From Chitinophagaceae bacterium (GTDB taxonomy: Bacteria > Bacteroidota > Bacteroidia > Chitinophagales > Chitinophagaceae): a stretch of DNA of 36,459 bases. Shown piece after piece: positions 2,020 through 20,391 of the stretch. The stretch's first letter is position 1, and the number at the start of each line of letters is the position of its first letter. The DNA lies in the NCBI GenBank assembly GCA_023251255.1, contig JAHEZD010000061.1:1-36459 (forward strand), in the 5' to 3' direction. Below the pieces are notes generated by a model. It was not told the origin of the DNA, ran no database searches, and worked only from the letters and a program-made list of their open reading frames with translations. A program made the position numbers and the translations under genes.

Positions 2020-2089
2020 ATTTTTATGACAATCCTTTTTCTGCCTAGAGATGGATTGCCCCTCCTAGCGCAATTCAAGAAAGGCGGAA

Positions 2090-2222
2090 CAACGGTTATG
2101 GCTTGGTGTTGTAGGGGAAATCAGGGAACGTCGGCCCAACCTTGCACTAAAGATGAATTGAAATACAATACCAGAGCCTTTATTCTTCACCCCTATAACG
2201 CCAAACGCCTCATGTTAGCGGT
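2090..2222 (-). repeat. Cassette-boundary repeat S1 (attC-like, subfamily I)
   Basis: An imperfect inverted repeat of about 130 bp lies just after the DoxX-like gene. Read on the minus strand it runs from CCGCTAAC (2214-2222) through GGCGTTATAGGGG to CCCCTACAACACCAAGCC and AACCGTTG. It aligns over about 115 bases with S7 at 12272-12410, with long identical blocks (TTGTAGGGGAAATC, GAGCCTTTATTCTTCA on the plus strand), and less well with S5. The outer arms are complementary, as in attC sites of integrons. The right-hand boundary core is GTTAGCGG on the plus strand. It is the leftmost member of the series and lies next to the ffh terminator. Confidence 0.75.
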
Positions 2223-2253
2223 TCGTTGTTCTCTTTTTATTCTCTCATCAATG

Positions 2254-2625
2254 CTAAATGTTTACTGCCTGCCTTTTGTAATGAAAGTAGTAAGACCCGG
2301 AAATAATCCCCAATATAATGATAGGGAAAACAATATATGATATTGGGTTGCCAACTGCTAATAGTGAATAGATTGCTCCAATTAAGTCAAACACAAGTCC
2401 TCCATAAGCCCATTCTTTAAGTCTTGGAAATTTAGGAGTAAAGATTGCGATTAATGCCAAAATTCTTGCAATACCTAAAAAAGGTGAAAGGTAAGCTGGA
2501 TAACCAAGATCTGTAATTATTTTAATTGATTGTGGATTTCCTATAATGTCCATTACTGAGCCAAAACCAAAGCTAGGTATTAACAAGCCAGTAAAAACCC
2601 AATAGAAAATATTCAAACGTTTCAT
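2254..2625 (-). CDS. DoxX-like small membrane protein
   Basis: This 123-residue protein has four predicted membrane helices, as DoxX-like proteins do: an N-terminal helix (FYWVFTGLLIPSFGFGSV), a LGYPAYLSPFLGIARILALIAIF segment, the conserved KEWAYGGLVFDLIGAIYSLLA helix and a final IVFPIIILGIISGSYYF helix. It starts 4 bases after the stop of the SRPBCC-VOC gene and is the last gene of a three-gene operon with that gene and the ArsR-type regulator. In Bacteroidota such DoxX-like genes often sit beside SRPBCC/AHSA1 and VOC genes under ArsR control (known context). The biochemical role is unknown; DoxX relatives are linked to redox or thiol stress. Confidence 0.8.
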   Translation of the reverse strand: MKRLNIFYWVFTGLLIPSFGFGSVMDIIGNPQSIKIITDLGYPAYLSPFLGIARILALIAIFTPKFPRLKEWAYGGLVFDLIGAIYSLLAVGNPISYIVFPIIILGIISGSYYFHYKRQAVNI

Positions 2626-2628
2626 AAC

Positions 2629-3591
2629 TTATTTGTTTTGATAGTTAATCATCCAGTTAATTCCATATTGGTCTTTAAATTCCCCAAAGTAGGCACCAAA
2701 AAACATATCTGCCAATGGCATTGAAATGTGTCCACCGACTGAAAGTTCGTCAAAAAGACGTTTGGCTTCTTCCCTTGTTTCGGGCTCAATGCAGATATGC
2801 ATCTGATTTCCAGATAGCAGAGTAAATCCCATTTCTTTTGGAGCATCTGTTCCCATTAAAATGTGCCCCCCTACAATTGGAAGCTCTACGTGCAATACCA
2901 TCTTCTTTATTTCTTCTGCAACGGTTGGATGCCCTGCATCAACCGGAATTTCTCCAAAACGCTTAATTCCGTTGATGAAATCTGTTTTAAAAACTGATTT
3001 GTAAAAGTTGAATGCTTCTTCGGTATTGCCTGGAAAGTTGAGATATGTTGTTACCCTTGCCATATTATTAGATTTATTTTGTTTTCTTAATTGGAATTGT
3101 GCTTTAATGTATTGGTCAAGATTTTCGAGAGCCATTGTAAAGCCTTGTTGAAAGCCCATTTCAATAATTTTTTCTAAGTCAGAAAGCTTGTCATACTTAG
3201 CAGTAATGGTTACAAGGGTTGTGTTTTCCATTTCTGTAAACAGATTTGTCCAAGCCGTTCTGGGCATTTCAGTATTTACGTTACCGTCTTCATCACAAAA
3301 TGCATCTAAGCCCGAAAACATTGACTGATGCACTATTTTGAGGTAATCATTTTTACACCAATGCTTTACATTTTCAGGGCTAATCATAGCATACAACCAC
3401 ATTCCACCTTCTCTAAAATCCATTGATTTTGTTTCTGTGCGATAGGGTTTTGGTGCCCACCATTGGTCAAGGATTTCGGGGTTTGTCCAAGCTTCCCAAA
3501 CCAATTCGAGGTTTGCGGCAAACTCACGCTTTACATTAACTGTATTGTTTCCTTTGTTAACAATGAAGTCAAATTTTAAGTTGCTATTCAT
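2629..3591 (-). CDS. SRPBCC (AHSA1-like) and VOC (PhnB-like) two-domain fusion
   Basis: Residues 1-165 form an AHSA1/START-like SRPBCC domain ([18 protein letters not shown], then [13 protein letters not shown] and a terminal helix [17 protein letters not shown]). Residues from about 176 form a complete PhnB/3-demethylubiquinone-methyltransferase-like VOC domain ([55 protein letters not shown]). The linker is QNKSNN followed by the Met that normally starts free-standing PhnB-like proteins. In relatives these are usually two adjacent genes. The linker DNA is AT-rich like an intergenic gap, so the fusion may come from loss of a stop or an indel. It overlaps arsR by 4 bases and is 3 bases from the DoxX-like gene. 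Ligands are unknown. Confidence 0.88.
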
Positions 3592-3914
3592 TTTCTATTT
3601 GATTTTAGTTGTTCTAATACGTTGTCTAATTGGTCGAAACGCTTTGCAAGTAATTGCTTAAACTGTTCTAACCATTTTTCTATGTCCTTCATTTTGTCGG
3701 CATTTAAGTGATAATGAACCTCTCTGCCTTGCTGCTCTTGTTTTAATATTTCGCACTCGGTCAAAATTTGCAAATGTTTAGAGACAGCCTGTCTGCTTGA
3801 ATTAAAATGTTCAGCAATGGCATTTGGTGTCATCGCACCAACAGTCAAGAGCAAAATGATTGCTCGTCTTGTCGGGTCGGCTATTGCTTGAAAAATATCT
3901 CTTCTTGTTTCCAT
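3588..3914 (-). CDS. ArsR-family winged-helix repressor (SdpR-like)
   Basis: The 108 residues contain a standard ArsR fold: [16 protein letters not shown], the recognition helix region [19 protein letters not shown], and the wing [14 protein letters not shown]. It contains only one Cys and no CxC metal site, so it is more like the metal-independent SdpR-type repressors than ArsR or SmtB. Its ATG at 3912-3914 lies just downstream of a promoter overlapped by a palindrome, so it probably represses its own operon with the SRPBCC-VOC and DoxX-like genes. The inducing signal is not visible. The ORF overlaps the next gene by 4 bases, which implies translational coupling. Confidence 0.9.
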
Positions 3915-3927
3915 TGTCAGTTTATGT

Positions 3928-3974
3928 GCAACTAAGTGATTGCAAATATAAATGCAACTATTTAGTTGCGCAAA
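3928..3974 (-). promoter_or_regulatory. arsR operon promoter with embedded operator
   Basis: On the minus strand, TTTG (3971-3974) is followed after 20 bases by TATATTTG (3943-3950), which matches the Bacteroidota -33/-7 pattern TTTG...TAnnTTTG. Between them lies a perfect inverted repeat GCAACTA-TT-TAGTTGC (3954-3969 on the plus strand). A second GCAACTA half-site with a weaker partner lies at 3928-3943, 26 bases away. Repressor bound here would block the polymerase, fitting autoregulation by the adjacent ArsR protein (inference). Confidence 0.7.
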
Positions 3975-4053
3975 TTTTTCTGTGTGTTTTTTTTGCCCCT
4001 GACTTTCTAAGAGTGATTTATGTCTTGTTGTAGTGTCCTTTTACAATGAGCAC

Positions 4054-4317
4054 TAACGGAGCAGCTATTGCCGAAGTAGGGGCCATTCGGGCCTCTACTC
4101 TACGCCTTGTTTTAAATGGAAGCAATAGCGTCAATCGTCGACGGCTTGCTGCCAGACCGGACTTCTGTGTTACGCCGCCCCAGCTACAGGACCTGGCTAA
4201 AAAATTGAACTTTAAACTAACAAAATCTAAGTTACAAAACGGTCGCCCAATGGGTGCTGTTGATTGATAACTGCTGCTCATTGCAACTACGTCGAGCCAG
4301 CTTGGCAGCTGACGCTA
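4054..4317 (-). repeat. Possible degenerate cassette-boundary repeat S2
   Basis: This gene-free stretch lies between the lyase-like gene and arsR. Read on the minus strand it starts with CGCCTAGCGTCAGCTGCCAAGC and ends with GGCAATAGCTGCTCCGTTAGTGC. An inner segment (TTGCAATGAGCAGCAGTT) resembles one in S3 and S8 (GGAGCAATCAGCAGCAGT). It is longer (about 260 bp) and less symmetric than the others and also contains a local GGGGCC-ATTC-GGGCCTC-type hairpin near 4080-4096. A 73-codon frame on the plus strand here is judged spurious. Confidence 0.4.
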
Positions 4318-4340
4318 GGCGTAGCTTTTTATATGTTGTC

Positions 4341-5090
4341 TTATTCTTTAATTTTTTGTTTGCTGAATTCATCAAAATATATTGTCATTGGGATTGCTAT
4401 TAAATCGCGGTATAATCCCATTTTAAAATAAAAACTACTGTTAGTAGCAAATCCATATTGAGTACCGTAACAGGTTATACCAGTATAATTAATGATATCC
4501 TTATTATTTAGGGCTGCGACAATTGAACCATTAGCGCCTCTCGAAAATTTAATTTTAAACTTTAAATCCAGCCATCGGCCTTTTATATTTTCTTTAGTTC
4601 TGTAAAGAATTTCTTTTTTCAAACTTGTCTGAAGTGTAATGAATAATTCTCCGGATTCATAACGGATTGCAATTATGGGACTTCTATCTTGACAACTATT
4701 CTCCTCGCATCGTTGTTTCCATTGTGCAATAACTAGTCTTGTTGGTACAATGGGAAAACTGTCTGGAACAAAAATACTAAACGAGTAAGCGTATTTTTGT
4801 TCTTCGAGCGACTCTAATTCTTTGGCTTCCAATAATTCGTCTCTTTCAGAAGCCTTACTGCTATCATTGCCTGATTCATATATGTCACCTGTATGTAGCG
4901 TAATCTTTGCAGCATTTTTTCCACTGTGAACCACCTGTGATTGTATCTCCAGGGAATTAGGAGCTAACTTATTTGATTTCCAGATTTTACTTAGCTCTTG
5001 TTTCTCAAACCCATCATATGTATTTAATTGAGCATTGCAGGGCGAAGCAAAAAAAAGTGCAACAATAGCAGGTAAATAGTTTTGATTCAT
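4341..5090 (-). CDS. Secreted polysaccharide-lyase-like protein (heparin-lyase-I fold, PF14099-like)
   Basis: The 249 residues start with a signal peptide (about 1-20, ending CNA-Q). The mature part resembles the heparin lyase I/alginate-lyase-like jelly-roll family: an SERDEL motif (about 80-86) after a strand-rich N terminus, YAYSFSIFVPDSFP (about 103), VIAQWKQR (about 123), SPIIAIRYESGELFI (about 138), and GRWLDLKFKIKFSRGANGSIVAALNN (about 172). A C-terminal LYRD element and YFDEF strand complete the fold. Such proteins act in the periplasm or outside the cell on acidic polysaccharides (family knowledge). It stands alone between two boundary repeats, not in a SusCD-type locus, which is unusual for a polysaccharide enzyme. 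The substrate cannot be told, and it might be only a binding protein. Confidence 0.7.
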   Translation of the reverse strand: MNQNYLPAIVALFFASPCNAQLNTYDGFEKQELSKIWKSNKLAPNSLEIQSQVVHSGKNAAKITLHTGDIYESGNDSSKASERDELLEAKELESLEEQKYAYSFSIFVPDSFPIVPTRLVIAQWKQRCEENSCQDRSPIIAIRYESGELFITLQTSLKKEILYRTKENIKGRWLDLKFKIKFSRGANGSIVAALNNKDIINYTGITCYGTQYGFATNSSFYFKMGLYRDLIAIPMTIYFDEFSKQKIKE

Positions 5091-5109
5091 TAGAGATTTT
5101 TAAAGTTAC

Positions 5110-5295
5110 ACCTAACACTAGGGCCTGACGATGTAGCGGCATTTGAAAAACGTCCTGCTCGGCCCCCCCTGTCCAATAGAATTACTACTGTTGAAGATAA
5201 CAACTAAAGCGCAAAAGTAAAAGTCAAGCCTAGACTGCTGCTGATTGCTCCAATGTCCAGGCCCACTATTGGCAGTACCAATTTAGCAGTTGGGC
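5110..5295 (-). repeat. Cassette-boundary repeat S3 (attC-like, subfamily II)
   Basis: On the minus strand the element begins 4 bases after the GNAT stop with GCCCAAC (5289-5295) and ends with GTTAGGT (5110-5116). These match the integron core consensus RYYYAAC and GTTRRRY exactly and are the best consensus matches in the window. Inside are GGGCCTGGACATTG near one end and a complementary GATGTAGC..AGGCCC arm near the other. The GGAGCAATCAGCAGCAGT block is shared with S8 (12988-13162). The length of 186 bp is above the usual 57-141 bp for attC. Confidence 0.7.
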
Positions 5296-5299
5296 AAAA

Positions 5300-5764
5300 T
5301 TATATGTCCTTCTCAAACACCACCCTGTCTTGTCCAGGTGCAGCATAGTCTTTTACTACTTCGATGCCGTTTTCATTTTTGCTACCGAGCAATTTCATTC
5401 CAATTTTTCTGTGAAAGGAAATGGACAATTGGTTCGTTGCGGTGGTAATTGCTTTTAATTTAGTGTATCCTTTATTTTTAACATATTTTTTAAAGTGTTC
5501 ATACAGCAGTTTCCCAAGGCCCTTATTTTGGAAATTTTGTCTTACCCCAATTAAATGGACATAACCTGTCTTTTGGGTTTGCGATAAAAAACCAAATAGA
5601 TATGCAATGACTCTTCCATTGTCCTTGATAACAAATGCCGTGTCACCAAACTCATATATGAACATGGGATGATGAACACTCAATGTCCTGTCACTACCCC
5701 AAAAGTCAGAGATGTCTGTCAGGATTTCATGAAAGTCACTTTGTGTGCAATTGTCAATTATCAT
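5300..5764 (-). CDS. GNAT-family N-acetyltransferase
   Basis: A 154-residue single-domain GNAT protein that would transfer an acetyl group from acetyl-CoA to an amine. Motif A is clear: VHLIGVRQNFQNKGLGKLLYEHF (about 93-115) with the Q-x-x-G-x-G acetyl-CoA loop. Motif B follows as ATNQLSISFHRKIGMKLLG (about 124-142). The N-terminal part (FHEILTDISDFW) fits the substrate-binding region. Substrate cannot be inferred. It lies between repeat S3 and the HxlR-type gene, 49 bases from the latter, and could be read from the HxlR promoter. Confidence 0.88.
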   Translation of the reverse strand: MIIDNCTQSDFHEILTDISDFWGSDRTLSVHHPMFIYEFGDTAFVIKDNGRVIAYLFGFLSQTQKTGYVHLIGVRQNFQNKGLGKLLYEHFKKYVKNKGYTKLKAITTATNQLSISFHRKIGMKLLGSKNENGIEVVKDYAAPGQDRVVFEKDI

Positions 5765-5813
5765 CGTCTTTTTTTGCCTTACTGCTAACGGGCAGGTATT
5801 GCTGCTGCTTTTG

Positions 5814-6248
5814 CTAGCTGCTGCTTTTTTTCTCGGTCATTTTGATTTTCAGTTCTTTCGTAACCTGCTTTATAAATTTGTCCTTGTCTTTCTTCGCTTC
5901 CTTAATGGTTGCTTTTAGGTCGGCCGGCATTTCATAATATTTTTCTGACCAAATGTAAACCTCCATAATTACAGGCAATAAGTCAATTCCTTTTGGTGTC
6001 AGTCTGTACAAAATTTTTGCTTTACTGTCCGGGTGTACTGATTTTTCAATAACGCCATTCTCTTCAAGCCCTTTCAGTCTTGATGCTAAAATATTGGTGG
6101 CAATACCTTCTTCCGATTTTAAAAAGTCGTTGTAAGTACACTTGTTTCCGAACATCATGTCCCGGATAATGAGTAATGACCATTTGTCGCCAAACACGTC
6201 AAGCGAAAAACTCAATGGGCAGTCGGACCTTTTTTTACTTGCTTCCAT
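5814..6248 (-). CDS. HxlR-family winged-helix regulator
   Basis: I place the start at the ATG at 6246-6248 (144 residues), because MEASKKRSDCPLSFSLDVFGDKWSLLIIRDM is the normal HxlR N terminus; an upstream in-frame Met would add 30 residues that overlap the operator region. The single N-terminal Cys next to the FGDKWSLLIIRD helix is typical, and in some HxlR proteins it senses aldehydes or reactive electrophiles (family knowledge). The recognition region is GIATNILASRLKGLEENGVI, with a wing KILYRLTPKGIDLLPV. The C-terminal tail is Lys-rich. It is divergent from two SDR genes and a quinone-reductase-like gene, whose expression it probably controls through the palindromes in between. Confidence 0.92.
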   Translation of the reverse strand: MEASKKRSDCPLSFSLDVFGDKWSLLIIRDMMFGNKCTYNDFLKSEEGIATNILASRLKGLEENGVIEKSVHPDSKAKILYRLTPKGIDLLPVIMEVYIWSEKYYEMPADLKATIKEAKKDKDKFIKQVTKELKIKMTEKKSSS

Positions 6249-6277
6249 AAAATAATTTAAAAGTATTTTGAAAAATA

Positions 6278-6326
6278 ACTTGCAATTTGAAAGTTGTTTA
6301 TATATTTGCACTTGCAATTTGCAAGT
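6278..6326. promoter_or_regulatory. Tandem palindromic operators between hxlR-type gene and SDR genes
   Basis: A perfect 17-bp palindrome ACTTGCAATTTGCAAGT (6310-6326) is preceded by a second copy, ACTTGCAATTTGAAAGT (6278-6294), that differs at one base. The copies are exactly 32 bp apart, about three helical turns, so two dimers would bind the same face. The sequence TATATTTG (6301-6308), a TAnnTTTG -7 element facing the SDR genes, lies between them and abuts the second palindrome. This fits joint control of both divergent units by the HxlR protein. Confidence 0.8.
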
Positions 6327-6359
6327 AAAATTACACATTAAAAAGTAAACCGAGTAAAA

Positions 6360-7166
6360 ATGAAAAAAAATATTTTAGTCACAGGGGCATCTTCGGGCTT
6401 TGGTTTGTTAGTCGCAAACGAGCTACACAAAAGGGGTTACAATGTAATTGGTACAAGCAGGAATCCTGAAAAAAATCAGTCGTCCTTGCCGTTCAAAATG
6501 TTGGCATTGGATATTACTGATGATCATTCTATCAAATCTTTTGGCAAACAACTTTTTACCGAAATCAAACAATTAGATGTTTTGATAAATAATGCAGGTT
6601 TTTATTTGTCAGGACTTGCCGAAGAAACTTCTATTGAGCAAGGAAAACAACAATTAGAAACCAACTTTTGGGGAACTGTAAAATTGACCAACGAGATACT
6701 GCCCTACTTTAGAAAGCAACGTTTTGGCAAAATAATCACATTAAGTTCTATTATGGGGTTAATCAGTCTTCCAGGCGGTGCTTATTATGCTGCTTCTAAG
6801 CATGCCCTTGAAGGTTATTTCAGAGCACTGCGTTTTGAACTAAAAGAATTTAATATAAAAGTAAGTATGATTGAGCCTGTGGGTTTCAAAACCAATATAG
6901 TTACTAACTCTAAAGTTGCAGAAAATAAAATAAGTGATTACGATGAATATCGCACAACACTTGAAGATTATACAAAATATTTATTTACAAAATCAGAAGA
7001 GCCAACTGCTGTTGTTGAAACCCTTTTAAAATTGGTTGAAAATGAAAACCCCCATTTTAATCACCCCGTGGGCAAAGGTTCTACTTTGTTCCCTGCAGTA
7101 CAGTTCTTTTCATTTAAAACTTTTGAAAATGCAATAATTAAAAGTATTAACAAATTTAAAAAATAA
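6360..7166 (+). CDS. SDR-family NAD(P)-dependent oxidoreductase (classical)
   Basis: The 268 residues have the Rossmann TGASSGFG cofactor motif (about 8-15), an Arg in GTSRNPEK that suggests NADP preference, the NNAG motif (about 78), the catalytic Ser in ITLSSIMG (about 132), and the YYAASK catalytic Tyr-Lys pair (about 145). The C terminus (KVSMIEPVGFKTNI and later) resembles the retinol-dehydrogenase-like/carbonyl reductase group of SDRs. It is the first gene of the plus-strand unit divergent from the HxlR regulator and is followed after 4 bases by a second SDR. With the third gene it probably detoxifies or reduces carbonyl compounds (inference). Confidence 0.93.
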   Translation: MKKNILVTGASSGFGLLVANELHKRGYNVIGTSRNPEKNQSSLPFKMLALDITDDHSIKSFGKQLFTEIKQLDVLINNAGFYLSGLAEETSIEQGKQQLETNFWGTVKLTNEILPYFRKQRFGKIITLSSIMGLISLPGGAYYAASKHALEGYFRALRFELKEFNIKVSMIEPVGFKTNIVTNSKVAENKISDYDEYRTTLEDYTKYLFTKSEEPTAVVETLLKLVENENPHFNHPVGKGSTLFPAVQFFSFKTFENAIIKSINKFKK

Positions 7167-7170
7167 AAAA

Positions 7171-7953
7171 ATGGAGTTAAAAAATAAAACGATTTTAGTT
7201 ACGGGAGGCACTGCTGGTATTGGGTTAGAGGCAGCAAGGCAATTTTTAAATGTTGGTGCAAAAGTTATTATCACTGGCAGAGACCGAGAAAAATTAGATG
7301 CGGTACAACTACAATACCCTACTATAATTGCTATAAAAAGTGATGTAGCAAACGAAGCCGATGCCATTTCCCTTTTCCAACAAGTTGAAAAACTCGGTGG
7401 AATTGACATTTTATACAACAATGCAGGTGTTTTAAAATTGTCAAACAATATGGGCATCAAAAGCGATAGCCATTTAACAGATGCCGAATATGAAATGACC
7501 ACCAATTATTTCGGAGTCATACGCCTTAATAATCTTTTTATGGATATGCTGAAATCAAGAAAAGAAAGTGCGATTATCAATACAACTTCACTGCTTGCTT
7601 ATGTTCCTTCGGCAATTGAAGCAACATACTCCGCTTCCAAAGTGGCACTGCGTTTTTATACAGAAACGCTAAGAAAACACCTTGAAATTCTTAACAGCAA
7701 TGTAAAAGTGTTTGAACTTTTACCTCCCGTAGTTAAAACTGAAATGACCGCCACCAGAAACGATAAGAAGATAACACCTGAGAAACTGGTAAACGCACTT
7801 CTTGCTGGCCTTAGGAAGAATCAATTTACCATCCGTGTTGGCGATACAAAATTGCTATATATCGTCAATCGGCTTTTCCCAAAACTGGCTTTTGGTTTGG
7901 TTAACTCAAAGCAGCATACAAAGCAGTTGCTGCCACAAAATTTTGCGGGTTAA
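7171..7953 (+). CDS. SDR-family oxidoreductase, DltE/YdfG-like
   Basis: A 260-residue classical SDR with TGGTAGIG (about 11-18), the TGRDREKL cofactor strand, NNAG (about 88), the Ser in INTTSLL and the catalytic YSASK (about 151). The C-terminal region VFELLPPVVKTEMTA is typical of the DltE-like branch. It is similar in size to, but clearly different from, the preceding SDR, so the pair is not a recent tandem duplication. It begins 4 bases after its neighbour and so is very probably co-transcribed and coupled. Substrate unknown. Confidence 0.92.
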   Translation: MELKNKTILVTGGTAGIGLEAARQFLNVGAKVIITGRDREKLDAVQLQYPTIIAIKSDVANEADAISLFQQVEKLGGIDILYNNAGVLKLSNNMGIKSDSHLTDAEYEMTTNYFGVIRLNNLFMDMLKSRKESAIINTTSLLAYVPSAIEATYSASKVALRFYTETLRKHLEILNSNVKVFELLPPVVKTEMTATRNDKKITPEKLVNALLAGLRKNQFTIRVGDTKLLYIVNRLFPKLAFGLVNSKQHTKQLLPQNFAG

Positions 7954-8008
7954 AAGATAATCAGTGACATAAAATATTTCTTGACAACGTAAATGAAAAT
8001 TAACCAAA

Positions 8009-9013
8009 ATGAAAGCATTCATAGTAAAACGCTACGGCAAAAAGGAAAAGTTACATTTAACTGACTGGGCAGAACCAATTGTAAAAGAAAATGATGTATT
8101 GGTACAAGTTCATTCGGCCGGTGTCAATCTGTTAGATTCATTAATCAGAAATGGCGACTTCAAATTGTTTTTACCTTACAAGCCACCATTTGTTAATGGG
8201 CATGATGTGGCAGGTGTTATAACAAAAATTGGTTCAGAAGTTAGCAAATTCAAAGTTGGCGATGAAGTGTATTCCCGTCCATCAGATTATAGGGTTGGCA
8301 CATTTGCAGAATACATTTCTATTGATGAAAACGATGTTGCGTTAAAGCCAAAAAATCTTACCATGGAAGAAGCCGGCTCAATTCCGTTGGTTGGTTTAAC
8401 TGCATGGCAGGCACTTGTGGAAATAGGAAAAATCAAAAAAGGGCAAAAAGTTTTCATTCAAGCTGGCTCAGGTGGTGTAGGTACATTCGCCATTCAATTA
8501 GCAAAATATTTAGGGGCTTTCGTTGCTACAACTACAAGTACAAAAAATATTGATTTAGTCAAAAGTCTTGGTGCTGATTTAATCATTGATTACAAAACCG
8601 AAGATTTTGAAACCAAATTGAAAGATTATGATTTGGTGTTACATAGTAATAGGGATACCAAAATTTTAGAAAAATCGCTCCGCATTTTAAAGCCAGGCGG
8701 GCAACTCATTTCATTGGTCGGGCCTCCAACGCCTGAATTTGCAACCCAAATTGGTTTGCCTTGGCATTTAAAACTCGTTACAAAACTTTTGAGTTTGAGT
8801 ACAAAGAAAAAAGCAAAGAAATTAAACACCCATTTTGTATTCTTGTTTATGAGAGCAGAAGGCAAACAATTAGGTCAAATAACACAACTCATTGAATCGG
8901 GTGCCATAAAACCTGTCATTGATAAAGTGTTTCCATTTGAGCAAACTAATGAAGCATTGGCTTATATAGAAACAGGCCGGTCAAGAGGAAAAGTCGTTGT
9001 TAAAGTCAAGTAG
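8009..9013 (+). CDS. MDR-family NADP-dependent quinone oxidoreductase (zinc-independent type)
   Basis: The 334 residues show the medium-chain dehydrogenase layout: a GroES-like N-terminal half (GVNLLDSLIRNGDF, GHDVAGVITKIG) and a Rossmann half with AGSGGVGTFAIQLAKYLGA (about 152-170). The Cys/His pattern for structural zinc is absent, which points to the QOR/zeta-crystallin-like group that reduces quinones or alkenals with NADPH. The end, SRGKVVVKV, is standard. It follows the two SDR genes on the same strand 55 bases away and probably belongs to the HxlR-controlled unit. HxlR regulators beside quinone reductases often respond to electrophile stress (known association). Confidence 0.92.
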   Translation: MKAFIVKRYGKKEKLHLTDWAEPIVKENDVLVQVHSAGVNLLDSLIRNGDFKLFLPYKPPFVNGHDVAGVITKIGSEVSKFKVGDEVYSRPSDYRVGTFAEYISIDENDVALKPKNLTMEEAGSIPLVGLTAWQALVEIGKIKKGQKVFIQAGSGGVGTFAIQLAKYLGAFVATTTSTKNIDLVKSLGADLIIDYKTEDFETKLKDYDLVLHSNRDTKILEKSLRILKPGGQLISLVGPPTPEFATQIGLPWHLKLVTKLLSLSTKKKAKKLNTHFVFLFMRAEGKQLGQITQLIESGAIKPVIDKVFPFEQTNEALAYIETGRSRGKVVVKVK

Positions 9014-9031
9014 TTTTGTCTGTGCAGGGCG

Positions 9032-9256
9032 GCAGATAACATGGGTTTGTGAGAAAACTGAACTCTTTTTAAATTATCAAGACACCTATTGGAGAATGAT
9101 TGTCGTTTAAGCGATTCTCGAAGCTCTTTTTTAGTTTTTTCACAGTCTAATGACCAAGGCTTGGCGAAGGCGGGATATTTGATATTGCGTCCGCTTAGTA
9201 AAGCTGCCGATTGATTTTCCGTCTGCCAAACTTTTGTAAATACCTGTGTTATGCGC
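9032..9256 (-). repeat. Cassette-boundary repeat S4 (attC-like)
   Basis: The ends are inverted: GCAGATAACA (9032-9041) and TGTTATGCGC (9247-9256). Inner arms GGCTTGGCGAAGGCGG and CCGTCTGCCAAAC are also complementary. The left half, with ATTGGAGAATGATTGTCGTT (near 9090-9110) and TTGTGAGAAAAC, recurs at S8 (13009-13064). It lies between the convergent ends of the quinone-reductase and VOC genes. The 283-base gap between those genes holds nothing else that I can see. Confidence 0.65.
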
Positions 9257-9296
9257 TGCTTTTGTTGTCTGCATTGTCCAAATTGGCGCCGATTAT

Positions 9297-9773
9297 TCAG
9301 TCAGGTTCTTTTAAAGCATTTCTATTTGCAGTGAGTTGTTCTGCCAGACCGATAAGAACTCCTTCAGGACCGCGTATATAACAAAGCCTATACAATTCTT
9401 CATACTTAACCACTTCTCCCACGAGCCGTGCACCAATTTTCTGGAGCCTTTCAAGTGTATCATCGATATCGTCCACCGTGAACATAACGCGTAAATAGCC
9501 AAGCGCATTAACTGGTGCATTGCGGTGATCCGCAATAATGGGCGGAGTTAGAAATCGTGATAGCTCGAGACGACTGTGACCATCAGGAGTAACCATCATT
9601 GCAATCTCTACCTGCTGGTTCCCTAATCCGGTGATACGCCCAGCCCATTCCCCTTCTACTGTTGCCCGCCCTTCCAATGTTAAACCAAGCTCGGCGAAAA
9701 AAGCAATGGCCTCATCGAGGTATTCTACCACAATGCCAACATTGTCCATCCGTATTAGTTTGTTATTTGCCAT
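9297..9773 (-). CDS. VOC-family (glyoxalase/bleomycin-resistance-like) protein
   Basis: A 158-residue protein with two beta-alpha-beta-beta-beta modules of the vicinal oxygen chelate fold: IRMDNVGIVVEYLDEAIAFFAELG with EIAMMVTPDGHSRLELSRF, then ALGYLRVMFTVDDIDDTLERLQKIGARL with LCYIRGPEGVLIGLAEQL. Glu and His residues at the usual metal positions (HSRLEL and GVLIGLAE) fit a metal-dependent enzyme or binding protein. The ligand is unknown. It is followed 95 bases upstream by DUF4345 on the same strand, and the pair sits between repeats S4 and S5. Its codon use looks more GC-rich than its AT-rich neighbours, hinting at a different origin. Confidence 0.88.
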   Translation of the reverse strand: MANNKLIRMDNVGIVVEYLDEAIAFFAELGLTLEGRATVEGEWAGRITGLGNQQVEIAMMVTPDGHSRLELSRFLTPPIIADHRNAPVNALGYLRVMFTVDDIDDTLERLQKIGARLVGEVVKYEELYRLCYIRGPEGVLIGLAEQLTANRNALKEPD

Positions 9774-9868
9774 AGCTATATTTATCTAGTAATAAATGTC
9801 ACTTTCTCTATTTAGGGCTTCTATTCGAAAAGACCCTGTCCGAAAGTAGCACATAATGGGCGGTTTTT

Positions 9869-10264
9869 TTATTGACCTACTGTCGCCCTGTATTTGTGTA
9901 AGTTTCTTGTTCCCCAAATAGCAAGTATTAATTCCGATGCAACTCCAACTGAAAAGGAAATCGATGGAACCCCGTCCACTACTAAGCTAATGATCCTTCC
10001 AAATGCCAAGCCAGCCATAAAAAACACATTTGAAATTGTTGCGGCCCGCCAATGGACTGGTTTTAAAATCCCCATCACCCAAAGTACAACCATCGCTAAG
10101 TACAATCCCATTGTCGCCCTAAAAACGTGCTTCAAATCAATGGACTCCACGTTGAAGTCAAATAATCTTGGTAGCATATTGCTTGGGAACAAGCCGTACA
10201 CCAATGAAATAACCGAAACAATAATGGCTGAAACAGTTAAGTGTAAGTTTTTCCTTTTTGTCAA
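9869..10264 (-). CDS. DUF4345 integral membrane protein
   Basis: The 131 residues form four hydrophobic helices (about 8-25, 47-68, 75-95 and 102-120), with LKHVFRATMGLYLAMVVLWVMG and FFMAGLAFGRIISLVVDGVPS between them. This pattern matches the DUF4345 family of small Bacteroidota and Proteobacteria membrane proteins, whose function is not known. It starts about 40 bases from repeat S5 and is read in the same direction as the VOC gene downstream. The 95-base gap to that gene contains only a half-core-like ATTATGTGC and no full boundary repeat, so the two genes may be one cassette. Confidence 0.8.
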   Translation of the reverse strand: MTKRKNLHLTVSAIIVSVISLVYGLFPSNMLPRLFDFNVESIDLKHVFRATMGLYLAMVVLWVMGILKPVHWRAATISNVFFMAGLAFGRIISLVVDGVPSISFSVGVASELILAIWGTRNLHKYRATVGQ

Positions 10265-10301
10265 AATTTGAGATTGGAATTTGAAAGCAGTTATAAAACC
10301 T

Positions 10302-10441
10302 CCGCTAACGTTTCAGGGCTTGGCAATGTGGGGAAATCATGGCCCATCTGCCCAGCCCACAAACTAAAGATAAATAAAATGCTGAACTACAGCCCATGTT
10401 CTTCTGTCCCATAACGCCAAACCCAAGTTGTGTGCAGGCGT
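10302..10441 (-). repeat. Cassette-boundary repeat S5 (attC-like, subfamily I)
   Basis: On the plus strand it runs from CCGCTAACG (10302-10310) through CAGGGCTTGGCAATGTGGGG to CCCATAACGCCAAACCCAAG and GTTGTGTGC (10427-10435). The inner arms GGGCTTGGC and GCCAAACCC are complementary. It shares AACTAAAGATAAAT and the GGGGAAATC block with S1 and S7. On the minus strand it starts about 6 bases after the stop of the MORN-like gene. Confidence 0.7.
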
Positions 10442-10448
10442 TATTGCT

Positions 10449-11408
10449 TCAACATTTTTTCCCATCTTTCCATATGAATTCTTTAAGCTGTCCATCAATA
10501 ACTTCAGTTTTATTTGTCCCATCTTCATCCCATTCCCTAATAACTTTTGTGTCTTTGCCATTAGACTTATTATGATGCCAATATTCTGTCCTTACAAGTT
10601 TTCCATCATAGTCAAATACTTTGAACTCACCATCTATTTCACCCAAGTTATTTTTAAAAAATATACTTGAAATATTTCCATTTTTATGATATGCTGTTAT
10701 TTGCCCGCTTTCAACTCCGCTTACAATTGTATAAGTCCGCATTATTTTTGTTGTTCCAGAATAATAGTCAGTCCATGAGCCGTTTGGTCTTCCCATTTTA
10801 TAAAAGCCTTGTTGATTGTCGGATTTTATTTTCAGCATGATGTATTTGGAAGAATCAACAAAATATGGTTGTCGAGGATTCAGTAAAAGGGTGGAAAGTA
10901 TTGGTTGGGCGACCTGCTTTTTTTGGATATGCTTTACTTCATCTAAAAAAATCGGGTTGCCAAAAAATGCAGTTAAATCCCACGTAGAGGATACTCTGTC
11001 ATTTAGTTTAAAATGTGTAATAAGTTCAAAGTTTGGCTTCGTGTCAAGAAATGTTATTATGGAGCCAAACGCAACAAAAGTTTCCAAATTATTACTGTCA
11101 ATAAGATAAGCTTGGTTAAAATTAATTATTGCACTATCAATTATGCCAATTGTGAAATAATTCCAACCATTTATTAGCAGTTGCCTATATGCCGATTCCT
11201 TGTCGTCATATTTACTTATAAGTTGTTTTGTGAGCATTTGTTCTTTGTCAAGTTGCATGGCACTTTTTTTAACACCATAAAAAAGTGGAGCAAGAAAATA
11301 GTTCTTTTTAATTTTTTGTTGCCATGAGGTATTTTCAATTAGATAAGGTTGTCCTTGAACATTGATGATAAAAGCAACTGAGAATATTATTGCAATAAGT
11401 CCTTTCAT
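10449..11408 (-). CDS. Exported TPR-like/MORN (YwqK-like) protein
   Basis: The 319 residues start with a signal peptide (about 1-19, cleavage near NVQG-Q). A helical middle (about 75-125: QLLINGWNYFTIGIIDSAIINFNQAYLIDSN) looks like one or two TPR units. The C-terminal 120 residues contain MORN_2/YwqK-type repeats: GRPNGSWTDYYSGT, ESGQITAYHKNGNISSIFFKNN, GEIDGEFKVFDYDGKLVRTEYW. Such proteins are common in Bacteroidota and mostly unstudied; a few YwqK relatives are antitoxins, but the signal peptide argues against that here. It is a single gene between repeats S5 and S6. Confidence 0.75.
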   Translation of the reverse strand: MKGLIAIIFSVAFIINVQGQPYLIENTSWQQKIKKNYFLAPLFYGVKKSAMQLDKEQMLTKQLISKYDDKESAYRQLLINGWNYFTIGIIDSAIINFNQAYLIDSNNLETFVAFGSIITFLDTKPNFELITHFKLNDRVSSTWDLTAFFGNPIFLDEVKHIQKKQVAQPILSTLLLNPRQPYFVDSSKYIMLKIKSDNQQGFYKMGRPNGSWTDYYSGTTKIMRTYTIVSGVESGQITAYHKNGNISSIFFKNNLGEIDGEFKVFDYDGKLVRTEYWHHNKSNGKDTKVIREWDEDGTNKTEVIDGQLKEFIWKDGKKC

Positions 11409-11429
11409 AAATTTCAGGGTGTTTTTCTA

Positions 11430-11566
11430 CGCTTGTACACAACGGGCTGGGCTTTCTGCTGGGCTGGCATTTAGACGTCCAGTTCGGAACTGAAGCTGGG
11501 ATTTACAATTGGCTCATGTTACAAGGTCAAGCCCAACTCGCATAAAACTCAATGTTAGTAGCAGTG
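11430..11566 (-). repeat. Cassette-boundary repeat S6 (attC-like)
   Basis: The ends are GTACACAAC (11435-11443) and GTTAGTAGC (11554-11562), facing each other. Inner arms GGGCTGGGCTTTC and GGTCAAGCCCAAC are complementary in part, and a small hairpin (CAGTTCGGAACTG, 11480-11492) sits in the centre. On the minus strand it follows the stop of the acyl-carrier-like gene by about 8 bases and ends shortly before the MORN-like gene start. Confidence 0.65.
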
Positions 11567-11569
11567 CTT

Positions 11570-12265
11570 TTATGCTGCCCAACTGAATTTGTCATTTTTT
11601 GTTAAATATGCTTTGTCTATGTCAAGCTCGGTACTAAATGTGTCAATGATAACTTTCAAGATTTCGTGTCTATTAATTGTCCCTTTTTTTCGTCTACTGT
11701 CAATATAATTTTCCCTTACAATTTTTTCTGTCAACTGTCTTACTGTTTTAATTTTAAATTCCTTTGCAAAGAACTTATTCGCTGTCCAACCCACAGCGAT
11801 GAAAAATAAAAGACCGCTTAATGCCAATTGCCACTTTATAAAGAACGTAATGAGAGAAGCGACAATGCCGATAAATATTGTCCACCCTAACCATGAGTTG
11901 ATGTCCAAAATGTCAAGAGGCAAACCTAATTCATTTTTAAGTTCTTGAATTTTTTGTCTGCGTTTATGTCGTGGAAAGATGTCCTGTAATTTGGTGTCCA
12001 GGTTTATAGAGTTTTTGTCTACTAGTTGTGTCGCTGAGATTGCATTGCGAACTTTATAAAATGCTTGTTGTGATGTACAGTCCTCTGAATCGGTTCCTTG
12101 AACGTTGTTTGTAATTATATCACACAGGTCGCCGAATGTTTGAACGTAAAGGAAGGCGTCCTTTTCAAATTTCAAGTTGAAAGACTTTTCAAGTTTTACA
12201 ACTACATCAAAGATGTCTTCATCTTCGTAGTTGTCAAGTGTTGTTATGTCGTTAAGGATTGCCAT
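11570..12265 (-). CDS. Acyl-carrier-like domain with two membrane helices, unknown function
   Basis: I choose the ATG at 12263-12265 (231 residues). A longer frame adds 29 residues, but these are encoded by repeat S7. The N-terminal part (EDEDIFDVVVKLEKSFNLKFEKDAFLYVQTFGDLCDIITNNV) has the helix pattern of acyl-carrier-like proteins such as DUF1493, yet the DSL phosphopantetheine serine is missing. Two hydrophobic helices follow (SWLGWTIFIGIVASLITFFI and LALSGLLFFIAVGWTA). The C-terminal section again looks like a carrier-like helix bundle (HEILKVIIDTFSTELDIDKAYLTKNDKF). It may tether a partner to the membrane; this is speculative. Single gene between S6 and S7. Confidence 0.7.
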   Translation of the reverse strand: MAILNDITTLDNYEDEDIFDVVVKLEKSFNLKFEKDAFLYVQTFGDLCDIITNNVQGTDSEDCTSQQAFYKVRNAISATQLVDKNSINLDTKLQDIFPRHKRRQKIQELKNELGLPLDILDINSWLGWTIFIGIVASLITFFIKWQLALSGLLFFIAVGWTANKFFAKEFKIKTVRQLTEKIVRENYIDSRRKKGTINRHEILKVIIDTFSTELDIDKAYLTKNDKFSWAA

Positions 12266-12271
12266 TGCATT

Positions 12272-12410
12272 GCTACGGTTTTGGGCTTGACGTTGTAGGG
12301 GAAATCGGGGGAACGTCAACCCAACCTCTACTAAAGATAAATTGAAATCCAATAACTTGAGCCTTTATTCTTCAGTCCCTATAATGTCAAACCCAAGTTA
12401 GCTGCTGGCG
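12272..12410 (-). repeat. Cassette-boundary repeat S7 (attC-like, subfamily I)
   Basis: On the plus strand it starts with GCTACGG and TTGGGCTTGACGTTGTAGGG and ends with CCCTATAATGTCAAACCCAA and GTTAGCTGC (12397-12405); these arms are complementary with few mismatches over about 22 bases. It is the closest relative of S1, about 10 kb away. The stop codon of the orphan gene at 12398-12970 (TAA, complement of 12398-12400) is part of its GCAGCTAAC core. Confidence 0.8.
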
Positions 12411-12970
12411 TTCTTCGTTGTCCCGTCATCATTTATAAAAGTGAATTGGTGTTCCTGATTTATAATCTGTCCACCTATTTGTAAAAAGCTACCGAACAAC
12501 CCACGCCAATCTTCAACGTCATTTTCTTTATTTGTATCCCAACGAATTTGTCCATACATATAGTTGTCAGCAGTTTTGTTTAATACCACGCCAAATTCAT
12601 TTTTTAGCATGACTTTCGTTCCTGCAAGAAAATCCTGGTTTCTCTTCCATTTGTCAGCTATACGAAATATGTTGTTGCCTAGTTCCTTTCCTTGTTGTCC
12701 ACCGAATATGTCCCATTCTTTTGTCGGTGTAAACCATTCCCAGATCCTCGTGAAGTCAGTAATGTTGTCTCCTTCTATTTCATATAGTTCCTCGATATAG
12801 TCCTCTTTAAATTTAAAAAAAACGCTCTCGTTTTTGTCGTTGCCGATATCAATCAAAAGTCTTTTTGCTTTGTGCAAGTCATCAAACAATTCAAACAACT
12901 CCCATTTTTTCCAATAGTCAATCTTGGAAAGTTTGTCAGAGTTGCGTTTCTTAAAAAGTCGTTTGAGCAT
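12398..12970 (-). CDS. Orphan cytosolic protein, unknown function
   Basis: The 190 residues match nothing I recognise. It is soluble, charged and rich in aromatic residues: a basic start (MLKRLFKKRNSDKLSKIDYW), a helical part KKWELFELFDDLHKAKRLLIDIGND, then TRIWEWFTPTKEWDIFGGQQ, FRIADKWKRNQDFLAGTKVML, and a C-terminal YGQIRWDTNKENDVEDWRGL. The last residues (KNASS) and the stop are encoded inside repeat S7, so the terminus depends on the boundary element. That is expected when a gene was caught by a cassette. It sits alone between S7 and S8. The Trp-rich pattern might belong to an immunity or SMI1-like fold, but I cannot support that. Confidence 0.75.
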   Translation of the reverse strand: MLKRLFKKRNSDKLSKIDYWKKWELFELFDDLHKAKRLLIDIGNDKNESVFFKFKEDYIEELYEIEGDNITDFTRIWEWFTPTKEWDIFGGQQGKELGNNIFRIADKWKRNQDFLAGTKVMLKNEFGVVLNKTADNYMYGQIRWDTNKENDVEDWRGLFGSFLQIGGQIINQEHQFTFINDDGTTKNASS

Positions 12971-12987
12971 AATGTTGGTCTAAGCTT

Positions 12988-13162
12988 GCAGCTAGCGAGA
13001 GTTTGTGAAAAAACTAAGCGGTTTATATTAATGTCAAGGGCGCTTATTGGAGAATGATTGTCGTTTAAGTGATTTTCAACCCGAACCAAAGCCGATAGCG
13101 AACTGCTGCTGATTGCTCCAACGCCCAGCCCCGCTATTGGCAATACTCATGTTAGTGGTAGC
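12988..13162 (-). repeat. Cassette-boundary repeat S8 (attC-like, subfamily II)
   Basis: The ends are GCAGCTAGC (12988-12996) and GTTAGTGGT (13151-13159). The right half shares GCTGCTGATTGCTCCAA and a CTATTGGCA block with S3. The left half shares TTGTGA-AAAAACT and TTATTGGAGAATGATTGTCG (near 13038-13057) with S4, so S8 looks like a mosaic of both. The DUF4145 stop (13147-13149) lies inside its terminal core. Confidence 0.75.
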
Positions 13163-13812
13163 TTTCCTTTCGAACTAATCCGGTCTGTTAATTCTTTAAC
13201 TTTTTTAGGGGCTACGTATAAGTACTCTACAACGATTAAGAAAAAATCATTTAATAATTCAGCATCCCAAATGTCTATTTCCTCTTCAGATGCATGTGAA
13301 CCCATATTCCCTACAATCCGAATTAAGTCCGTAAAGTCTTGAAAGTGTCCTGGAAATTTACCTTTAGTAGAAAGGTCTTTAATTTTATTGAACAGTGTTT
13401 TACCTACAGCTTTTTGTTCCTCACATATAAGTTCTAAGCCGCGTCTAATTTGATTAGCAAAGGCATTAGGAGCTTGATGTCGAAGATGATATATTCCATT
13501 ATAAAGCTTTCGCAATGTTTCAGGGACATTTTCATTTAGTAAGCTAGATTTTGGAAAAATGTAATCATAATCACTTATTAGTCTATTTGTGTATTTTAAA
13601 TGCGGCTCAAATTCTCCATAAATATTAGGACACTCACAAGTTGAGCATTGATAAATCAGAAACTCGTACTTCTCAAAAAACTTTTCAGTAAATAGTTGTT
13701 CATAAAGCTTTGTACCGATTTGTGTAAGCAACAATTTTTGTAAAGTAACATTCCCGCAATGATGACATTGAGCTTTTATTTCACTTTTTGTATGTTGGGT
13801 AGTTTTTGCCAT
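13147..13812 (-). CDS. DUF4145 protein with zinc-ribbon-like start
   Basis: The 221 residues contain two CxxC pairs (CHHCG at 16-20 and CSTCEC at about 55-60), which could bind one zinc ion. They are followed by the helical DUF4145 core: IYHLRHQAPNAFANQIRRGLELICEEQKA and a C-terminal FTDLIRIVGNMGSHASEEEIDIWDAELLNDFFLIVVEYLYVAP, with the typical IxGNxGxH element. DUF4145 domains are often attached to or near restriction enzymes and other defence proteins (known association); stand-alone ones like this have no assigned role. It is the last gene on the right of the repeat-bounded block, between S8 and S9. Confidence 0.85.
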   Translation of the reverse strand: MAKTTQHTKSEIKAQCHHCGNVTLQKLLLTQIGTKLYEQLFTEKFFEKYEFLIYQCSTCECPNIYGEFEPHLKYTNRLISDYDYIFPKSSLLNENVPETLRKLYNGIYHLRHQAPNAFANQIRRGLELICEEQKAVGKTLFNKIKDLSTKGKFPGHFQDFTDLIRIVGNMGSHASEEEIDIWDAELLNDFFLIVVEYLYVAPKKVKELTDRISSKGKLPLT

Positions 13813-13817
13813 TAATT

Positions 13818-13850
13818 GCCACTAACACAAAGATTGACGCTATTAGCTGC
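13818..13850 (-). repeat. Short core-like end S9 of the repeat-bounded block
   Basis: A 33-bp segment with GCCACTAAC (13818-13826) and ATTAGCTGC (13842-13850) facing each other lies 6-9 bases upstream of the DUF4145 start codon. It has both cores but almost no body. On the minus strand, which is the direction of the array, it precedes the first cassette, the place where an integron would have attI. Beyond it no further repeat of this kind is seen. Confidence 0.45.
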
Positions 13851-14046
13851 AATTCCAAAAATAATTGGTATTAATAATCAATAAGTTAACGTTATACTTT
13901 TTATACCAACCTGCCGGCAATTAAGCTGTTGTTAAGACAATCCATTTTTTCAATACGGTACTGTATAAAAAAAGAGCAATTTTAATCATCAACCCACCTC
14001 CCTCCTCCCTACAACAGAATGCCGTTTAGTTAGGAAGTACCATGTT

Positions 14047-14780: not shown

Positions 14781-14818
14781 ATTACTGCTTCGTAAAATGA
14801 TTGATTTACTTCCATCTG

Positions 14819-14915
14819 TCATCCCTGCCTTTGACGGCAGGCAGGTTCAATGCCGATAGCTATCGGCAGATTGTTTTGCGGAGCAAACATGGATTACACG
14901 GGTTGACATTCTTGG
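14819..14915. repeat. Dispersed repeat with TTTGCGGAGCAAA hairpin
   Basis: CATCCCTGCCTTTGACGGCA is followed by a GCCGATAGCTATCGGC palindrome, then TGTTTTGCGGAGCAAACATG and a TTGACAT end. Related copies are at 20392-20466 and, in part, at 17650-17710. All share the TGTTTGC-GAA-GCAAACA hairpin. It lies just after the stop of the XRE gene. Confidence 0.65.
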
Positions 14916-14928
14916 TAGAAAGAAATAT

Positions 14929-15450
14929 TCAACCACCGTATTGGCTGGCCAGTTGTTCCTGCATCCATACCATGGCCTGCAGCTTCAGGGAAACCACTGC
15001 CTGCTTGCCCGGCCCGCAGGCCCAGCAGTTTTTCTGCATCCGGGCTTCCACTTGGTTTATCCAGATTTCATTTCCCCTGCTGCTGGGTGGCAGCTTGCAC
15101 AGTTGGGCAATGAGGGCCAATGTCCCCACGCATTCCGCATATTCAGTCTCCATGGCCTGCAGTTGCTGCTGCAGCACGTACACATTGCGCTGGCACCGGC
15201 TGGCCATTTTGGCCATGAACGGGGCCACTTGCTGCTGCTGGTGGGCCTGTTGTATGGCTGCTGCATTGGCATCCAGTTCCTCCGCACTGTCCAGGCAGTG
15301 CTTCATCCTGGTCCATTTGCCCGTGGCTTTGTGGGGCAGGTCACGTTGGCCACTTTCAAAATCAGCCACCTGTGTGCGGCTCAGGCCCAGGTAGCCAGCC
15401 AGTTCCTGCTGGCTGAAACCCATTTCCTTCCTGATCTGGTTGATGCTCAT
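14929..15450 (-). CDS. XRE-family helix-turn-helix regulator with helical C-terminal half
   Basis: Residues 1-50 are a Cro/C1-type HTH: SINQIRKEMGFSQQELAGYLGLSRTQVADFESGQRDLP. The remaining 120 residues are helical, Gln-rich (AAAIQQAHQQQQ, LQQQLQAMETEYAECVG) and contain several Cys, including an NCWACGPG motif near 140; they may dimerise or sense a ligand, but no known domain is seen. The ATG at 15448-15450 starts the HTH directly. A striking concentric palindrome lies 45-102 bases upstream and is a good candidate for autoregulation. The coiled-coil gene downstream on the same strand may be functionally linked. Confidence 0.85.
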   Translation of the reverse strand: MSINQIRKEMGFSQQELAGYLGLSRTQVADFESGQRDLPHKATGKWTRMKHCLDSAEELDANAAAIQQAHQQQQVAPFMAKMASRCQRNVYVLQQQLQAMETEYAECVGTLALIAQLCKLPPSSRGNEIWINQVEARMQKNCWACGPGKQAVVSLKLQAMVWMQEQLASQYGG

Positions 15451-15494
15451 ATAGTTTGTTTTTGTTTCGGAAAGCCATTAAAAAAAATTCAAAA

Positions 15495-15552
15495 AAATGC
15501 GACACTTTTTTTTGCGACATTTTAAAATGTCGCATTTTTTTGTGTCGCATTT
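15495..15552. promoter_or_regulatory. Concentric double palindrome upstream of the XRE gene, candidate operator
   Basis: An inner perfect 22-bp palindrome TGCGACATTTTAAAATGTCGCA (15513-15534, written here as two 11-base arms TGCGACATTTT/AAAATGTCGCA) is framed by outer arms AAATGCGACAC (15495-15505) and GTGTCGCATTT (15542-15552). Both share the centre at 15523/15524. T tracts of 7 separate the arms on both sides. This gives four TGCGACA-like half-sites with dyad symmetry, as expected for cooperative binding of a Cro/C1-type dimer. A terminator is less likely, because no plus-strand gene ends here. Confidence 0.7.
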
Positions 15553-16442
15553 ATTTTTTATTTTTTTTCATCGTATTTTTTTGATCCTATTTTTTTCATT
15601 TTCCGGCGCATTGCTTTTTTACAATGCGGTCATGCTTGATTGATATAAGTGCACTGCCAAGGGCAGTTGGATAAATGGGAGGAGGCTGTCCAATGCTTGA
15701 CGCTGGTTTTCCAGTAAAATGCGGGTGCTGCCATAACGGTCAGGGTTAGGTGGAACTGGTTTCCCTAAATTAGGACAGGCCTGGAGTCGGCAAAGGGGGC
15801 TGTGGTGAATTAAGGAAATTTTAGCATATGGCAGAGGTCCTCTCCTTTTTGCCATCGCCGCAAAAAGGAGCAAAAAAGGCTAGGACAACCCGAATGGCTC
15901 CCGCCCGTTTGTCCGCCAGCGCTGCCCTAAGTGTAGCCCGCCGTGTTTTACTGCTGGATGGCTGCGGTTTTCGGATTGCTTGCACACATGGATGGGTGGA
16001 GTGCAACTTCCAAGCACTGCACCCATTCCTTTTGATCCCGTGCCCTTCGGACGGGACAAATCCCGCATTCCATGCGGCACCGGAATGGGTGAGGTGCTTA
16101 GTGGCATTTTATGCAGGTGAGGGTTTGGGTGGCAGGGGAATTAATCAATGGATGGCTGATTTCCAGTTGTTGTTAGCTGGAAAACAAGAAGCCAATTTGT
16201 TCCGTCCGAATAAGTGTCCACAGTATAGGACCTTTCGGGGGGAGAAACATGAATTAGCAGGGATGGGTTCATATTGCCGCTTGCGGCAACCATTCGTGAA
16301 AAAGATTCGTGCAGATTAGTGGCATTGGTGGCTAAAAGGTTAAGAAAGTGGGCTCCATGATTACCTGAAACTATGCACTTACATTAACTAAATTAAATCC
16401 AAAACAAGGGCAGCAGCACATATTTTTGCCAAAATCTTTGTT
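15553..16442. other. Gene-poor stretch of about 0.9 kb
   Basis: No convincing gene is visible. The longest plus-strand frame (15828-16319) is Arg/Ala-rich with no domain and overlaps minus-strand frames of equal quality. A minus-strand frame at 15619-15873 ends in a protein-like stretch (STRILLENQRQALDSLLPFI) and might be the remnant of a small gene. Short inverted repeats occur near 15848-15875 (CTTTTTGCC..GCAAAAAG) and 16030-16060 (CCCGTGCCCTTCGGACGGG). It is probably degenerate or repetitive DNA upstream of lptB, whose promoter should lie at its right end. Confidence 0.5.
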
Positions 16443-17615: not shown

Positions 17616-17623
17616 AAAAGCCA

Positions 17624-20369: not shown

Positions 20370-20391
20370 TAGACCCGATGGCTATCGGGTG

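Follow-up and report, generated by a model that had tools for sequence, protein, structure and literature searches.

We analysed a stretch of 36,459 nucleotides from a Chitinophagaceae bacterium (hereafter, the window), which is contig C166 of a 6.1-Mb genome in 188 contigs. Small unrelated genes, mostly on the minus strand, occupy 2.09-13.85 kb of the window, and nine inverted-repeat sites (S1 to S9) and a partial tenth (S10) lie between them. This region is probably a cassette array in decay, with no recombinase beside it, from an integron-like system that occurs widely in its class, Bacteroidia, and whose tyrosine recombinase lacks I2. In the passages of two papers, a canonical integron has the tyrosine recombinase IntI with an IntI-specific additional (I2) domain (PMC9668308, PMC7790495). 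At the level of sequence, we could show a cassette unit with its boundary, paired arms, an attI-like motif, and sites tied to one recombinase family.

Sites and cassette unit

The repeats S1 to S9 were present where the first-pass annotation had placed them, between the small genes. They also exceed chance: a covariance model (R1) built from 20 sites in nine further genomes, when applied to the minus strand of the window, found four of them: S8 (12262..12412, E 4.1e-15), S6 (10293..10442, E 6.7e-13), S1, the last of the array (2085..2230 with the left core at 2214-2230; match at 2082-2224, E 8.6e-12), and S7 (11427..11569, E 7.9e-6). S5 (9024..9263) was matched weakly (E 0.025 on 9140-9258), and the short S4 (5773..5827), which also has the cores, was matched at E 0.15. 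The long S2 (4041..4328) and S3 (5100..5299; end score with S4, 12.0) were assigned from cores placed by eye, S9 (12980..13165) from its cores and a repeat, D10, that it shares with S5, and S10, at the upstream end of the array (13810..13861), from a cassette start that scored 8.0 against the left core of S9. All sites are on the minus strand, and the core coordinates refer to minus-strand cores placed by eye. The left core of each site overlaps the preceding stop codon or lies within about 35 bases of it. The exact match of the S3 ends to RYYYAAC/GTTRRRY is partly coincidental; homology to the S3 cassette's own start puts the left core at the adjoining TGCTAAA.

The ends of the nine window cassettes were complementary to each other within a cassette, scoring 8.8 on average, whereas same-site ends averaged 5.0 and the remaining pairs 5.5 (p 5e-5 by permutation, which is optimistic because the cores were placed by eye).

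The same signature was tested in relatives. A scanner that relies solely on AAC, GTT, and the inner arms was applied to the window, to contig C168 of the same genome, and to 20 regions from relatives; once its output had been filtered, 103 sites were retained in 19 of the 21 loci other than the window. Single matches of this scanner are unreliable because all window sites were missed and 0-6 matches appeared per shuffled locus; hence, pair statistics, controls, and covariance models were used instead. In the C168 array, a cassette begins with a sequence (e.g. GTTGTAGGTAACCC) that nearly repeats, in inverted form, the one at its end (GGGCTACCTACAAC). The bases after GTT were the reverse complement of those before AAC at five of five positions in 79% of 72 same-cassette pairs, whereas this was the case for 3% of 103 same-site, 2% of 84 outer, and 3% of 4564 random pairs. 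Named relatives (71 of 80 loci used) gave 28 of 46 same-cassette pairs versus 1 of 75 same-site pairs. Position 8 of the cassette ends never matched in the arrays of the window's family, where an A.C mismatch is conserved.

To avoid circularity, we also defined cassettes by their ends alone, which gave 141 pairs as compared with 11 in one shuffle per locus. Among sites flanked on both sides by such cassettes, 53 of 60 had paired arms (score of at least 10), whereas arms swapped between loci paired in 412 of 2845 cases. This test is fairer than the covariation counts on A2 and A4, which are inflated by the scanner's own demand for complementary arms.

Furthermore, locus L045 contained one 471-bp unit three times with different neighbours (8535-9005, 10846-11316, and 17497-17968), two copies being identical at 471 of 471 positions and the third at 95%. 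The shared stretch runs from CGTT to before or within the next GTT, and its boundary falls at the CGTT core. With about 275 bases between the sites, this cassette has little room for a gene. None of the 142 units compared was common to different genomes.

A cassette begins with the GTT that closes one site on the right and stops one base short of the following site's GTT. Besides its gene, it includes the inner arms and a left core (..AAC) of its own; once circular, it would therefore restore a site whose cores match. Because of the R1 matches, the within-cassette end pairing, and the triplicate cassette bounded at CGTT, the repeats behave as attC-like sites, in line with the cassette architecture that had been read from the window. 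It was mainly the relatives, through end pairing, arm pairing, and the triplicate unit, that bore this out.

The recombinase and its association with the sites

As had been noted before, no integrase is present in the window, and no PF00589 match was found on its contig. Among the five PF00589 matches in the genome, one on contig C168 is a tyrosine recombinase of 385 amino acids, which directly precedes, on the same strand, about 19 kb of mostly same-strand genes with similar sites between many of them. Thus, a recombinase near an array, which the first-pass annotation had suggested looking for, was absent beside the window array but present before a similar one. The annotation had left the choice between a sedentary integron remnant and a cassette system using another recombinase; the latter fits best and is supported, because the window array looks decayed and is not accompanied by a recombinase, and because the matching recombinase, on C168, is not IntI.

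The C168 protein contains PF00589 and PF13495. Its best NCBIfam scores, NF040815 (204.4 bits, cut-off 220) and TIGR02249 (180.5 bits, cut-off 265), were both below the cut-off; some longer relatives in the class passed that of NF040815. It aligned to IntI (2a3v) at residues 12-201 and 250-320 only, skipping 202-249, where the IntI insert lies. The name I2 and the place of the insert at these residues follow the literature. Judged by this alignment, the C168 recombinase is without the I2 insert and is not the IntI of a canonical integron. What we presume to be the catalytic residues were invariant in 13 family members. Many members end in the SP-x-D tail (SP-L/V-D) that is seen in IntI, and Xer-type controls end differently. 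In an 88-row tree, the family (support 98) and IntI (100) stood with other recombinases of the class, apart from 23 Xer-type controls (100), and in a wider tree, holding IntI and the family together was not rejected (approximately unbiased test, p-AU 0.22). Named relatives of the recombinase include Algoriphagus, Winogradskyella, Flavobacterium, and Rufibacter, and these names point to Bacteroidia as the class of the window. For a predicted structure of the Algoriphagus member (mean predicted local distance difference test score (pLDDT) 84.8, predicted template modelling score (pTM) 0.56), the best PDB match was IntI 2a3v (E 6.8e-17), followed by XerA 5hxy (7.5e-17).

The C168 recombinase has an extra N-terminal domain that is weakly HARP-like. 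For the model of this domain from Algoriphagus (pLDDT 90.4), the top PDB matches were XPB and SMARCAL1 HARP. The member in L141 (450 amino acids) appears to have this domain twice, and that in L215 is also long (542 amino acids). Related recombinases with SP-x-D/E or similar tails were also seen in L237, L247, L253, L255, L240, and L248 (Alphaproteobacteria, a Variovorax, and Patescibacteria); in the stretches read, the scanner recorded no sites, and a simple pattern gave no match to the N-terminal domain.

An attI-like site was then sought in 20 loci of the window's family. In 13, a GTT located up to 320 bases beyond the recombinase stop codon matches the end of a following cassette, and in 11 of these, a motif resembling tGCgtATatTTa.G was recognised before the GTT by eye, without a shuffled control. 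As judged from these matches, an attI-like site is located beside the recombinase gene, also on C168, as expected for an integron. Among 16 Bacteroidota-titled loci with at least 5 kb on both sides, 60 sites were downstream and 12 upstream of the recombinase (hand count); the same count in 11 other loci gave two and two.

At E 0.01 or below, R1 found 30 sites across the genome: six each on C168 and C161, four on the window contig, three on C66, two each on C49, C170, and C46, and five single ones. As to the concern that the repeats occur genome-wide irrespective of cassettes, they do lie elsewhere in the genome, with 25 in seven contigs that have at least two, the intervening genes having been read on C168 and the window only. 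In the window's family, sites were found in 79 of 117 genomes (stricter filters) and the recombinase at E 1e-60 in 40; 38 of these 40, as counted by hand in the tables, have sites. At least four sites were present in 37 of the 40 recombinase-positive genomes versus 22 of the 77 negative ones (Fisher 1.2e-11), and without the nine training genomes, in 28 of 31 positives (Fisher 3.9e-9). For 149 genomes of the class, we used a covariance model from 40 sites (R2) and a recombinase profile (A3, cut-off E 1e-70), which gave sites in 118 and the recombinase in 82. Sites occurred in 80 of the 82 positive genomes as compared with 38 of the 67 negative ones (Fisher 2.7e-10), and the association persisted without the 10 model-training genomes (70 of 72, Fisher 3.6e-9).

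Alternative explanations and contrary observations

The window array could be a cluster of attC sites lacking integrases (CALIN) from ordinary integrons, with true attC sites moved by the IntI of another organism and the C168 recombinase merely nearby. The layout of the sites resembles that of classical attC sites of the phylum, with a short left and a long right spacer in both (means of about 2 and 5), an asymmetry partly built in because the filter demanded a longer right spacer, although unfiltered votes were one-sided in many loci (e.g. 20:0 in L045). IntI arrays also have the within-cassette end signature: in 12 loci taken from the surroundings of IntI genes in the same phylum, 64% of 25 same-cassette pairs matched versus 5% of 41 same-site pairs. 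The core consensus RYYYAAC and GTTRRRY fitted 5 and 6 of 93 window-family sites and only 7 and 9 of 41 sites in the IntI control loci. In the IntI arrays, however, position 8 matched in 48% of pairs, unlike in the window's family. R1 gave only two matches at E 0.1 or below in 214,602 bases of IntI loci. Moreover, no IntI was over the cut-off in any of the 117 genomes of the window's family, the same model being over it in 105 of 395 genomes of the phylum, and the sites associate with the I2-less recombinase across genomes. We therefore regard an origin from ordinary integrons as improbable.

It is still harder to attribute the movement of cassettes to host XerC/XerD, with the array recombinase as a bystander. 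In its favour, nearly all genomes are expected to encode Xer recombinases, and some have sites without the special recombinase. Nevertheless, the sites adjoin the special recombinase with its attI-like motif, and the Xer-type controls form a separate branch with the support of 100 given above; this alternative is thus very unlikely. That the repeats are transcription terminators or mobile repeats (repetitive extragenic palindromic (REP) sequences or miniature inverted-repeat transposable elements) that chance to follow genes is scarcely credible: each begins near a stop codon and S5 contains a palindromic insert, but a terminator would pair inside a site. Relatives instead show pairing between the two ends of a cassette, with the gene in between, and L045 repeats an entire unit with sharply defined ends, so that the cassette-end test in relatives contradicts this reading.

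Several observations weigh against a decayed array of an integron-like system with an I2-less recombinase. In the window, S2, S3, S9, and S10 had no minus-strand match to R1; the arm scanner found none of S1 to S10, giving three unrelated matches per strand as compared with two and two in shuffles; and the true partner was the single best in just five of nine rows of the cassette-end test. Folding of S1, S6, S7, and S8 as single strands was no better than that of shuffles on either strand (z -1.60 to +1.18), while pairing of the arms is supported in relatives. Rfam gave no match at the gathering score in the window, L045, or L053. Seven of the 20 loci have no attI match, and L061 among the 13 looks spurious. 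In L232, G534, G568, and G594, the array lies upstream of the recombinase or diverges from it, as in classical integrons. The 38 recombinase-negative genomes of the class with sites resemble CALINs of classical systems, and the 82 recombinase-positive genomes were counted from profile matches, several of which cover the core only, without the N-terminal domain. When 22 further recombinases were added to the tree, the order among IntI, the family, and the others was unsettled (family branch support 41). The N-terminal domain matched weakly in Foldseek (E 0.065-0.09; template modelling (TM) score 0.54 for XPB and 0.44 for HARP) and as a sequence profile against PDB (HARP first, E 0.28), and Pfam HARP (PF07443) was found in 2 of 21 members (best E 0.0011) and is not listed for the C168 protein. 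Finally, excision and insertion by the recombinase are predictions from sequence.

With these points in mind, the I2-less recombinase would excise and insert cassettes and would act on a folded single strand, its N-terminal domain standing in for I2 in reading the hairpin. The C168 recombinase may act in trans on the window array. Whether this is a second kind of integron, in which the recombinase handles folded cassette sites without I2 and a HARP-like N-terminal domain reads the hairpin, we consider an evenly balanced proposition.

Contents of the array and relation to known systems

The first cassette encodes a DUF4145 protein (13147..13812, minus strand; PF13643 2.8e-15). It is followed on the minus strand by those of S9-S8 (a 190-amino acid protein without a Pfam match, 12398..12970), S8-S7 (a protein without a Pfam match, 11570..12264, with the start placed by eye in a listed open reading frame of 11570-12352), S7-S6 (a 319-amino acid protein with a weak MORN repeat in Pfam, 10449..11408; end score 11.0), and S6-S5 (glyoxalase-like and DUF4345 proteins by Pfam, 9297..10264). 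S6-S5 may be more than one cassette, and a site between its two genes may have been lost. S5-S4 (5814..9013; Pfam) contains an HxlR regulator on the minus strand and two short-chain dehydrogenases and a zinc alcohol dehydrogenase on the plus strand. The remaining minus-strand cassettes are S4-S3 (a GNAT acetyltransferase, 5300..5764; PF00583 4.2e-16), S3-S2 (a polysaccharide lyase family protein of 249 amino acids, 4341..5090; PF14099 1.6e-27, end score 10.4), and S2-S1 with three genes by Pfam (DoxX-like, an AHSA1/glyoxalase-like fusion, and an ArsR-type regulator, 2254..3914; within-cassette end score 8.2).

A palindromic element of 95-97 bp (GTGAAAAAACTAA..TTAGTTTTTTCAC) was observed at the right core of several sites: as the 95-bp insert of S5 (window 9049-9143), at 12946, 13863, and 15041 of C168, and at 3491 of L161. 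S9 has a related stretch (13045-13077). The placement suggests a small mobile element with these sites as its target, for which attC-specific insertions are a known parallel. Elsewhere in the window (14817-20466 and 20178-27070), REP-like features were noted, namely short repeats built around GTTTGCGAAGCAAACAT and two inverted 36-nt copies separated by 6.8 kb.

The system resembles a sedentary chromosomal integron in its one-way cassettes, its inverted-repeat sites with AAC/GTT cores and a left spacer shorter than the right one, the boundary at GTT, the attI-like point by the recombinase, and the SP-L/V-D tail. It differs in that the recombinase is without I2, has the extra N-terminal domain, and is encoded by a gene that mostly reads towards the array, and in that the cassette ends match over about 12 bases with the fixed A.C mismatch at position 8. 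As defined in passages of PMC9668308, a CALIN consists of at least two attC sites spaced by less than 4 kb, without an integrase in the vicinity. If its sites are counted as attC, the window array, with nine sites and a partial tenth, gaps of up to 3.2 kb, and no adjoining recombinase, would be one, but the sites here go with a recombinase other than IntI. The C168 protein is XerA-like (NF040815) by its best NCBIfam score, and XerA stands next to IntI in the fold search, whereas its score below 220 bits, its N-terminal domain, and its position beside cassette arrays set it apart. The family's N-terminal domain has weak fold and sequence similarity to the SMARCAL1 HARP domain and the N-terminal domain of XPB, but nothing significant apart from the one Pfam score of E 0.0011.

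A literature search over titles and abstract openings, without subscription papers and preprints, gave no description of the system, which may thus have been described elsewhere; the passages of PMC9668308, PMC8138268, PMC9024848, PMC7790495, PMC8352920, and PMC2426708 do not describe these arrays. In the portion of PMC8138268 concerned, the insertion is not fully conserved in an integron-like subgroup, and I2-less relatives may therefore have been seen there. The passages of PMC9024848 on IntegronFinder 2.0 name one complete integron in Bacteroidetes proper, that of Salinibacter ruber.

If the proposal holds, gene-capture arrays would be common in a large bacterial class, where integron finders would miss a complete integron because, in the passages of PMC9668308, their integrase call needs an I2 profile. 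I2 would not be the sole route to single-strand cassette recombination, and the second kind of integron would be either a living relative of the pre-I2 state or an independent solution. A lineage that lacks I2 yet is tied to cassette arrays, and that falls on the side of IntI rather than that of the Xer-type controls in the tree, makes this origin story testable.

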